A DNA stretch of 64,000 nucleotides from contig NZ_JAVDDV010000005.1 of the NCBI RefSeq assembly GCF_030848565.1, forward strand, positions 1 to 64,000. Direction: 5' to 3'. Position 1 is the stretch's first letter. Each line of letters begins with the position of its first letter. This document shows positions 4,293 to 6,500 of the stretch, piece after piece. The translations under genes were made by a program, and so were the position numbers. This DNA is from Natronolimnohabitans sp. A-GB9 (GTDB taxonomy: Archaea; Halobacteriota; Halobacteria; Halobacteriales; Natrialbaceae). Below the pieces are notes generated by a model, which was not told the origin of the DNA, did no database searches, and saw nothing but the letters and a program-made list of their open reading frames with translations.

Positions 4293-5213
4293 TTAGACGA
4301 GATCGAAGACGGTCGCCAAGATCACGAGGTTGAGCGCGACGAATCCGGCGGTAAATACGACAGACAACAGTGCATATGCCGCCGGACCAGAGACGGAGCC
4401 ACGCTTGAGATCCCGAAAGCCGCGGCTACGCAGATTGTGCCAGCCGAGCGCGTCGACGAGGACCCAGTAGCCGTCGCCTTCGATGAGTGGATTGAGCACG
4501 AAGACGGCCCGTGCCGCGATCAACAAAGCGAGGAAGCCGAAGATCGGCTGCGCGGGCATGGCAACGAACATGACGGCGAAGCCGGCTGCGACGACGATGT
4601 CGGCGAACGGACCGGCGAGGCTGATCCAGATGCGGACGTTCCGTGGGCATTGCCACGCATCAGTCGTTCGCGTGATAATCGCCGGAATTACCTTATTCAA
4701 TGTTCCGAGCCGAAGATTCGGATCGAAATACCGCCGACTCGGGACGTAGTGGCCGAGTTCGTGAATCGCGATCGATCCCAGTAACACTGGGAGGACGACG
4801 ATCGAGAGTTCGAATCCGAACTCGATATCTGCCGGCAGCGATTGAAGTTCCGGCCAGCGAACCACCAGACAGAGGAGAAGTACCGCGACGCTTACGGCAA
4901 GCAGGCCGAGACGTGGTGCGAGTCGAATGTCGGCCGGCGTTTCGTGGCGGATGACGTCGCCGCCCGGCTTCAGGTAGCCGTTGTCATACAATGACGTGAT
5001 TGTGTGTTGAACGCGCTCGTCGCATTCATCCGGATGTGTTGATCCGTCCGCGAGGTCGTGTAACCGATCGAAAAACACTGGATGGACGCGCTTGTAGTCA
5101 CCATCGTCGTTTCGCAGCCACGTCGTCCCGTCGGTCTCCCCCCACCGGAAGCCGAACCCGTTTTCCAACAGTTCCGCGAGGGTGTAGTCGTGGTCGGTAT
5201 CGTCGTCGCTCAT
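4293..5213 (-). CDS. M50 metalloprotease with N-terminal PqqD-like domain
   Basis: A 306-residue membrane protein. Residues about 10-85 form a soluble domain with the pattern of PqqD-like RiPP recognition elements: WLRNDDGDYKRVHPVFFDRL, then a helix and ITSLYDNGYLKPG. Residues 100-306 contain about six hydrophobic helices. HELGH (151-155) is the zinc site of site-2-protease-like M50 enzymes, and NPLIEGDGYW (about 241-250) supplies the third ligand, Asp247. M50 proteins of this kind occur in bacterial peptide loci such as yyd and daptide clusters. It lies 7 bp downstream of the ATP-grasp gene on the same strand, clearly one operon. I infer intramembrane removal of a leader or peptide export; a housekeeping protease is the alternative. 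Confidence 0.85.
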   Translation of the reverse strand: MSDDDTDHDYTLAELLENGFGFRWGETDGTTWLRNDDGDYKRVHPVFFDRLHDLADGSTHPDECDERVQHTITSLYDNGYLKPGGDVIRHETPADIRLAPRLGLLAVSVAVLLLCLVVRWPELQSLPADIEFGFELSIVVLPVLLGSIAIHELGHYVPSRRYFDPNLRLGTLNKVIPAIITRTTDAWQCPRNVRIWISLAGPFADIVVAAGFAVMFVAMPAQPIFGFLALLIAARAVFVLNPLIEGDGYWVLVDALGWHNLRSRGFRDLKRGSVSGPAAYALLSVVFTAGFVALNLVILATVFDLV

Positions 5214-5220
5214 CGGTGTT

Positions 5221-6171
5221 TCAGTTCGGCGTGACGTCGCGATCGGCGAGTAGGTCAGCGAGCGCGCCGGCAACGTCCGTGCCCGCTTGCTCGTCGAAGG
5301 TCGCAAACATCGGGGAGGGGTTAGCCTCGAGGACACGGAACCGATCACCGCCATCGACGACGTCGACACCTGAAAACGCCAGCCCGAGGCAATCGGTTGC
5401 CTGGACGGCAGCGTCGGCGATATCGGAGTCGAGCGTCGAGTGGTCGATCCGTTCGACGTCGTGATCGGTCGTCCGATAGTCGAGTTCGTCAGCGACGATT
5501 CGAGCCGCTGCAACGATCTCCCCATTGACGACGAAGATGCGGAGGTCGTCCCCGTCGATTCGCTCCTGAAACTGTACCGGGGCGTTGGTAAGCAACGACA
5601 GCCGGTCGGCAGTCAGATCCGCGGCCGTGACCGGTGCGGCGTGGCCACCGCCACTGACCGGTTTGTAAACGACGTCCTCGAGTCGGTCGACGAACGCTCG
5701 TGCCGCATCCGGATCGGTCGTCGTTAGCGTCTCCGGGACGGGGACGCCCGCGTCCGCAAGTCGTGACAGCTGCCAGGGTTTCCGTTTGTGGACGTCTTGA
5801 CTCTCGAGAGGATTGATCATCCGGACGCCACGTCGTTGCAGGTCGTACAGCATCGACTCGAGGACGGCCTGATACTCACGTAGCTGGTTGAGAAGGGAAA
5901 AGGGTCGATTCTCGAGTTGGCTTTCGTACTCGGATAGCCGCGGGTTGAGCGCGAAGTTTCGAAGATACGCGGTGTGAACGCTCGATCCGTCGACGACGGT
6001 ATCGGAAGCAGCCACTCGAACGTCCTCGTTCGTCTGATGGAACGACAACTTGCCGTCACCCGGCCAGTTGTCGGCGTTCCAGACGACAGTTTCGACGCCT
6101 CGTGTCTCGAGTTCGTGTTCTACGGCTTCGAGTTGTGGATCTGATCGAGGGCCCAGTAACAAGACTGCCAT
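5221..6171 (-). CDS. ATP-grasp peptide ligase (RimK/graspetide-synthetase-like)
   Basis: A 316-residue protein. The start chosen is ATG 6171 (MAVLLLGPRSD); an upstream in-frame ATG would add a hydrophobic AT-rich extension. Residues 1-120 are a pre-ATP-grasp domain. The ATP-grasp fold includes VVYKPVSGGGHA (Lys170, glycine loop 174-176), FQERIDGDDLRIFVVNGEI (202-219) and the Mg-binding FRVLEANPSP (Glu282, Asn284). This is the layout of RimK-type and MvdD-like ligases that join side chains of a ribosomal peptide. It heads an operon with the M50/PqqD-like protein and diverges from the 40-residue peptide gene. LysX- or GshB-like chemistry is less likely because no lysine, arginine or glutathione genes are near. 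Confidence 0.85.
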   Translation of the reverse strand: MAVLLLGPRSDPQLEAVEHELETRGVETVVWNADNWPGDGKLSFHQTNEDVRVAASDTVVDGSSVHTAYLRNFALNPRLSEYESQLENRPFSLLNQLREYQAVLESMLYDLQRRGVRMINPLESQDVHKRKPWQLSRLADAGVPVPETLTTTDPDAARAFVDRLEDVVYKPVSGGGHAAPVTAADLTADRLSLLTNAPVQFQERIDGDDLRIFVVNGEIVAAARIVADELDYRTTDHDVERIDHSTLDSDIADAAVQATDCLGLAFSGVDVVDGGDRFRVLEANPSPMFATFDEQAGTDVAGALADLLADRDVTPN

Positions 6172-6377
6172 TATCAAAATATAATATGTAGACAATATAA
6201 AACTAATCATCGGTCAATTAGGCCACTATCAAGTCGAAAGCAAATCCCACGCTGGCGTGTCTTATTTCTCGTTTGATACGACGATCGTTGCTGCGCTACC
6301 AGCTGGTTACCCAAGTTGAAATAATAATATTCTAGAAGAAAGATATAATATTATATGGTGGGAAGATTAGAACGGAT
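6172..6377. promoter_or_regulatory. AT-rich divergent promoter region of the putative RiPP locus
   Basis: A 206 bp spacer between the ATP-grasp gene (leftward) and the peptide gene (rightward), far richer in A/T than its surroundings. The rightward TATA candidate is TATAATATTATAT at 6344-6356, 22-34 nt before the peptide ATG. On the leftward side, AT-rich DNA at 6175-6205 can serve the ligase operon. The symmetric TAATATTA-type sequences could also be an operator. Confidence 0.6.
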
Positions 6378-6500
6378 ATGGATTCAGAAACCGACGAACA
6401 GATCCACTTCGTTGAAGACCTCGAGGAGCGATCGAACGCGACGACACTCGGCGATTTCACGACGACGGTAGTCGGCGAGTGTCCGGAGAAGTGCTGGTAA
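6378..6500 (+). CDS. Candidate RiPP precursor peptide (40 aa)
   Basis: A 40-residue reading frame starting MDSETDEQIHFVEDLEERSN and ending TTTVVGECPEKCW. It has no signal peptide or membrane span. The first 25 residues are acidic and helical, like a leader. The tail is short and carries two Cys, a Trp, a Lys, Thr residues and acidic side chains, which would be donors and acceptors for ATP-grasp cross-links (ester or amide). A TATA-like box lies the right distance upstream, and a run of six T follows the stop (6520-6525). Its neighbour across the promoter region is the ATP-grasp/M50 operon. The peptide assignment rests on this context and composition; I know no described family with this C-terminus. 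Confidence 0.7.
   Translation: MDSETDEQIHFVEDLEERSNATTLGDFTTTVVGECPEKCW

Follow-up and report, generated by a model that had tools for sequence, protein, structure and literature searches.

A putative plesiocin-like graspetide locus with a linked M50 protease in haloarchaea

Introduction

The side-chain ester ring-forming chemistry of graspetides is known from bacteria, and the general core motif of group 2 members is TTxxxxEE. Within this group, the plesiocin pathway uses a single ATP-grasp enzyme (PsnB) and a precursor with four core repeats, and the PsnA2 leader is bound to PsnB in PDB entry 7drm. In microviridins, the leader motif PFFARFL binds the ATP-grasp enzyme (PMC8939145). An NHLM/C39-type transporter is usual in group 2 graspetides (PMC13097080). 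All graspetides characterised at the time of one survey were protease inhibitors, and the enzyme that removes their leaders was stated there to be unknown (PMC8939145). M50 enzymes take part in RiPP maturation as EpeP for epipeptides and TglG/TmoG for pearlins (PMC10885120).

Surveys of archaeal RiPPs cover lanthipeptides and YcaO, radical-SAM and lasso RiPPs and leave ATP-grasp ones unmentioned (PMC12144867; also PMC10105419). No haloarchaeal graspetide is mentioned in the surveys of graspetides and of archaeal RiPPs (PMC8939145, PMC12144867, PMC10105419); some of the loci described here may be listed in supplementary tables or in the original plesiocin and group-classification papers. A predicted group 36 is described as "only found in Thermoprotea" (PMC13097080), which means that graspetides in archaea have been proposed before.

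Results

Layout of the locus

The window analysed here is a 64,000-nucleotide stretch of a Natronolimnohabitans sp. A-GB9 contig. It contains an ATP-grasp gene, an M50-type protease gene and a short frame that is divergent from the pair (Table 1). The arrangement is that of the original prediction: 7 bp (5214-5220) separate the end of the ATP-grasp gene from the M50 start codon, and the 40-codon frame lies across an AT-rich gap. This 206-bp gap is 64% A+T, compared with 36% for the whole window, and a TATA-like run at ~6343-6356 lies 22-35 nt 5' of the precursor ATG. Other precursors are likewise preceded by AT-rich stretches.

A conserved HFX_2341-type regulator gene adjoins the locus in Natrialbaceae, and an MMPL gene is nearby in several genomes. 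Both look like conserved chromosomal flanks, and the MMPL gene was rejected as an exporter. An AMP-binding synthetase beside the window locus was rejected as a tailoring gene because it is absent from every other locus. The locus neighbourhoods contained no conserved transporter gene, NHLM/C39-type or other, which counts against a graspetide assignment.

Table 1. Features of the window locus and the four clade B cores that lack an acidic side chain (positions are those of the window unless a locus is named)
Feature	Position	Strand	Details
Precursor peptide gene	6378..6500	+	40 codons; translation MDSETDEQIHFVEDLEERSNATTLGDFTTTVVGECPEKCW
Leader and core of precursor			leader MDSETDEQIHFVEDLEERSNA, core TTLGDFTTTVVGECPEKCW; putative border
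ATP-grasp synthetase, graspetide type	5221..6171	-	316 aa from ATG, start codon at 6171
M50-type membrane metalloprotease, candidate leader peptidase/exporter	4293..5213	-	306 aa
HELGH zinc site of M50 protease	4749..4763	-	residues 151-155; H151, E152, H155 invariant
RRE/PqqD-like N-terminal domain of M50 protein	4962..5180	-	residues ~12-84; predicted topology only
Predicted cross-linking segment	6459..6488	+	T28 T29 ... E34 C35 P36 E37
AT-rich putative divergent promoter region	6172..6377		promoter function judged from composition
Acid-free core	L044, 7389-7490		VVSTPITWFGG
Acid-free core	L045, 9625-9723		YYTGGCIAYC
Acid-free core	L082, 7720-7830		ALTGVMGNVYFGA
Acid-free core	L084, 6560-6652		RVTCPLSC

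Conservation and distribution of the three genes

The M50 protein was used as a query in haloarchaeal genomes, and the surroundings of its matches were then read. Across 24 genomes, this yielded 26 distinct M50 loci, 25 of which (in 23 genomes) have an ATP-grasp homologue beside the M50 gene. In all 25 paired loci a small frame of 30-47 codons is close by, in which the leader is acidic and the tail varies; lack of such conservation had been named beforehand as a result that would refute the original prediction. The frames were located by tblastn and motif scans and, in divergent loci, by ORF conservation or profile search. Precursors at L047-L050, L081, L083, L085 and L086 were overlooked by the first motif scan and later recovered by ORF conservation or profile, and the last four frames were identified through ORF conservation.

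The precursor has two alternative positions, upstream of the ATP-grasp gene in divergent orientation or downstream of the M50 gene; its placement is thus more than frozen DNA. Beside orthologous pairs it is 47-83% identical. Pairwise comparison from HF to the end among the window, L038, L039 and L040 gave dN of 0.02-0.19, dS of 0.43-1.9 and ratios of 0.04-0.23; the window-type precursor is under purifying selection. Because it recurs beside orthologous pairs with low dN/dS, the small frame is not a chance reading frame.

A profile of 17 precursors was run against 392 genomes of the class Halobacteria. There were 12 matches at E < 1e-4, 11 at these loci and the twelfth at a relic; since the profile was built from locus sequences, this recovery is expected, and the telling result is that strong matches are almost absent elsewhere. 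The relic (L119, G204:C1:3839689-3839751) is a degenerate precursor, HSVEDLEERSNAPP, inside a longer frame, and its genome yielded no M50 locus homologous to these.

Divergent transcription of the frame, and HTH or regulator genes close by in some loci, would also fit a conserved small protein that is unrelated to the ligase (a regulator, for example), with the ATP-grasp enzyme acting on a small molecule. We regard this as extremely improbable. The leader tracks the ligase through all subclades while the core diverges, an intact frame is confined, within the 392 genomes, to the two positions given above, and leader and core resemble those of PsnA2. The frame was originally predicted to encode a RiPP precursor, and its conservation beside all pairs, purifying selection and PsnA2-like leader and core bear this out.

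The system has a patchy distribution. M50 matches occur in 10 of 125 genomes of the window's family (one of them a relic), 8 of 28 genomes of the Halorussus family and 1 of 171 in another family, and the sampled genomes of the phylum outside the class yielded no clear M50 orthologue. The system is plasmid-borne in Halocatena salina and Halorussus salilacus. Two genomes, G163 (L047/L048) and G492 (L082/L083), each carry two unlinked copies from different subclades. The relic in a genome of the window's genus (G001, L051:5237-8090) consists of the MMPL gene and, 17 bp past its match, the last 63 M50 codons, with nothing else of the locus; it is a deletion scar.

The single unpaired locus, L080 (4607-8604), has a homologous M50 gene without an ATP-grasp gene, beside an ABC transporter pair, and counts against a graspetide assignment. 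A precursor-like frame at this locus reads MNEDTDYIDDIERRRNLNHGGCKGTCPNTDPWPNDDDNDGRY. The locus also encodes a 288-aa protein that belongs to no Pfam family and resembles an isoprenoid-synthase relative, with a similar 334-aa protein nearby. L080 is possibly another type of RiPP that shares the same protease.

The ATP-grasp ligase

By sequence, the best PDB match of the ligase is the plesiocin macrocyclase PsnB (7drm, E 3e-48 over the whole length), followed by PruB (2e-18) and RimK (4e-8). Identity to PsnB is 32%. An AlphaFold2 (AF2) model (pLDDT 88.3) has the same fold: Foldseek ranks 1-15 are all PsnB (TM 0.76-0.84), and PruB, MdnC, AMdnB and CdnC follow ahead of LysX and RimK. The predicted catalytic features, K170, the GGG loop (174-176) and E282-x-N284, are all present; K170, E282 and N284 are conserved and correspond to K192, E302 and N304 of PsnB. 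The enzyme was originally predicted to cross-link a peptide, and its closeness to PsnB in both sequence and fold supports that role, specified here as a graspetide synthetase.

Profile matches are less clear. The ligase matches the RimK Pfam domain, and its NCBIfam matches are ribosomal-peptide maturases far below cut-off (TIGR04187, 122 versus 350 bits), which counts against a graspetide assignment. The SAV_5884/TgmB and MvdC/MvdD maturases share the ATP-grasp superfamily and appear among these sub-cut-off matches, but differ in falling on separate tree branches and, for microviridins, in the PFFARFL leader (PMC8939145). In a quick tree, the haloarchaeal enzymes split into clade A with 12 members and clade B with 16, and PsnB, TgmB and an MvdC/D-like protein fall outside both. 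The long bacterial branches make the deep branching order unreliable.

Three Halorussus-type loci (L050:4688-6666, L085, L086) have two tandem ATP-grasp genes each, and in all three the ATP-binding Lys is replaced by Gln in the first copy, which suggests a non-catalytic or altered partner. In Natrinema gelatinilyticum (L036:5075), the ATP-grasp frame lacks its first ~ten codons in frame, perhaps from a frameshift.

Leader and core of the precursor

The precursors have a common leader, H-F-V/I-E-D/E-L...E-R-x-N in most, and a variable core. In clade A, the window's clade of 12 loci, the leader reads H-F-V/I-E-D/E-L-E-E-R-x-N-A. A phmmer search of the 40-aa precursor against the PDB returned chance matches only, and a profile was needed. 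PsnA2(14-38) bound to PsnB was the third PDB match of the precursor profile (E 1.4), aligned at TTLAIGE. A second query consisted of the L076 leader and core plus three letters (GPY) borrowed from the PsnA2 alignment; its E-value is inflated by this construction, and the matching letters are the informative part. The PsnA2(14-38) peptide in 7drm reads xFIEDLGKVTGGKGGPYTTLAIGEE. The window leader has FVEDL where PsnA2 has FIEDL, and is thus of the FIEDL type that marks group 2, and the L076 core TTLAIGEE is identical to that of PsnA2.

The canonical TTxxxxEE motif is present in sister loci L036, L041-L043 and L076-L078, whose cores include TTLAIGEE, TTLAVGEE, TTLALGEE and TTMAMGEE. The window core, TTTVVGECPEKCW, contains TTTVVGEC and lacks the canonical second Glu, reading TTxxxxEC rather than EE, which counts against a graspetide assignment. 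The window and its four nearest relatives share TT-x4-E-C-P-E-K-C. Recurrence of the C-P-x-x-C-W ending, which the original prediction proposed as a search key, holds within the window's own Natrialbaceae subclade only; the conserved elements are the leader and a T-T-x-x-x-x-E core. Judged by sequence, the window core looks like a derived form within clade A. It looks like a plesiocin-type hairpin with the outer Glu shifted two residues outward (C35 in its place, then E37) and two Cys gained, so we class it with the graspetides as one from a plesiocin-like lineage, without strict membership of group 2. Each of the ten clade A cores tested has a Thr or Ser followed at +5 by Glu or Asp. In the window peptide, T29-E34 is predicted to form the inner ester, by analogy with the ring chemistry of plesiocin.

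Clade B leaders are recognisable (e.g., MEHFIENINEEDFAEVEERENT), and the cores are unlike each other. Ser/Thr to Asp/Glu at +5 occurs in 9 of 9 acid-containing clade B cores, compared with 2.2 expected (shuffling, 0 of 5000), and because these nine represent only ~four independent groups, the true significance is weaker. The same spacing separates T29 from E34 in the window and, in TTxxxxEE, the second Thr from the first Glu. In four other clade B cores, no acidic residue follows the leader (Table 1), which counts against a graspetide assignment. The ligases beside these four cores are of graspetide type and apparently intact.

These acid-free cores also bear on a reading in which the ligase is RimK-type and adds amino acids such as Glu to the precursor C-terminus, with the M50 protease trimming the carrier as in pearlin-type pathways. 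Several clade B cores without a side-chain carboxylate would fit this, as would the RimK Pfam domain, RimK/LysX as the next structural neighbours, and the release of C-terminal products by the M50 protease TglG (PMC10885120). However, PsnB, PruB, MdnC, AMdnB and CdnC outrank every RimK/LysX, clade A cores have the plesiocin TT..E core and spacing, and C-termini vary across loci; we consider C-terminal addition very unlikely. With a PsnB-like ligase and PsnA2-like leader and sister cores, we therefore take the locus to be a graspetide locus.

The M50 protease and its N-terminal domain

The protease is a membrane protein with HExxH and the distal DG motif of M50 enzymes. HExxH and the GDG motif (H151, E152, H155, G246, D247, G248) are invariant in 16 of 16 aligned homologues. 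The window member scores 16.2 with Pfam Peptidase M50, compared with a cut-off of 27.2. Its best NCBIfam relatives are daptide and epipeptide maturation proteases (NF041824 and NF058609 matched, sub-cut-off); all 16 homologues match NF041824, with the window member at 65 versus 300 bits. The daptide (NF041824) and epipeptide (YydH/LiaK, EpeP) enzymes are likewise HExxH membrane proteases, but the window member falls far below their equivalog cut-offs. No other daptide (DapB/C/D) or epipeptide enzymes were found among the conserved neighbours.

The M50 protein is probably the leader peptidase. A rather unlikely reading, compatible with a graspetide product, is that it is an immunity or regulated-proteolysis factor and that a housekeeping protease removes the leader: graspetide loci are often without a leader-removing enzyme (PMC8939145), and co-occurring proteases may be resistance genes (PMC13097080). 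The strict one-to-one linkage, the invariant catalytic residues and the RiPP-maturation proteases as nearest families argue instead for leader removal by the M50 protein.

The first 85 residues had been predicted to form a PqqD/RRE winged helix. In the AF2 model (pLDDT 88.6), the N-terminal ~80 residues form three strands and then helices, as in PqqD/RRE, and the element order agrees with that claim to this extent. The fold itself was not confirmed, which counts against a graspetide assignment: Pfam PqqD did not match the N-terminus, hhalign against haloarchaeal PqqD proteins gave 21% over one helix, and Foldseek with the whole model returned no match, probably because the membrane part dominates. 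Peptide binding by this domain, as originally proposed, is a tentative assignment. As in the PsnB-PsnA2 and MdnC-MdnA complexes, it is most likely the ligase that recognises the leader. Known graspetide leaders bind the ATP-grasp enzyme, so an RRE-like domain, if there is one, is more likely to work for the protease.

Discussion

It is nearly certain that this is a RiPP locus with its precursor, and precursor conservation and homology to PsnB/PsnA2 uphold the original reading. Very probably it makes an ester-forming graspetide (omega-ester RiPP) and belongs to a haloarchaeal lineage that is plesiocin-like. The differences from the plesiocin pathway are one or two cores per precursor rather than four repeats, a window core (TTTVVGECPEKCW) with two Cys and without the EE pair, a linked M50 protease without a C39/NHLM transporter, and a haloarchaeal host.

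In the proposed pathway, the precursor would be translated and its leader (H-F-V-E-D-L-E-E-R-x-N-A) would dock on the ATP-grasp enzyme. Using ATP, the enzyme would phosphorylate Glu34 of the core, and probably Glu37, at the side-chain carboxylate. Attack by the Thr29 hydroxyl, and probably that of Thr28, would then form one or two nested ester rings (-18 or -36 Da), with a possible further disulfide between C35 and C39. Leader removal and product release would then fall to the membrane M50 protease, which possibly grips the peptide via its N-terminal RRE-like domain. The product may be a serine-protease inhibitor, a tentative suggestion by analogy with characterised graspetides.

A broader and speculative idea, which we think improbable, is a separate haloarchaeal graspetide radiation with a dedicated M50 protein that binds, cuts and exports, a sister-clade ligase that goes beyond Glu/Asp acceptors, and products that act on the extracellular proteases of competing haloarchaea. 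If so, the acceptor for the acid-free cores would have to be the C-terminal carboxylate or a Glu of the leader; we know of no description of a graspetide linkage via either.

The original statement that no described archaeal system of this three-part makeup was known needs qualifying. The synthetase/M50/precursor trio was not found for haloarchaea in the literature searched, and the class to which the system belongs, as an archaeal variant, is known from bacteria. Group 36 graspetides of "Thermoprotea" (PMC13097080) are also predicted archaeal synthetases, if the name means Thermoprotei; compared by description only, they differ in belonging to another archaeal lineage and in a co-occurring protein that is chromosome-segregation-like rather than M50. 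Given how short and divergent the precursors are, both of those checked (Halocatena salina, Halorussus salilacus) have no gene in a RefSeq-derived gene table, which is incomplete by design, and the pathway has therefore probably been missed by standard mining. If its product is confirmed, this would be the first haloarchaeal graspetide, as far as the literature searched shows, and the strictly linked M50 protease is a direct candidate for the removal of graspetide leaders.
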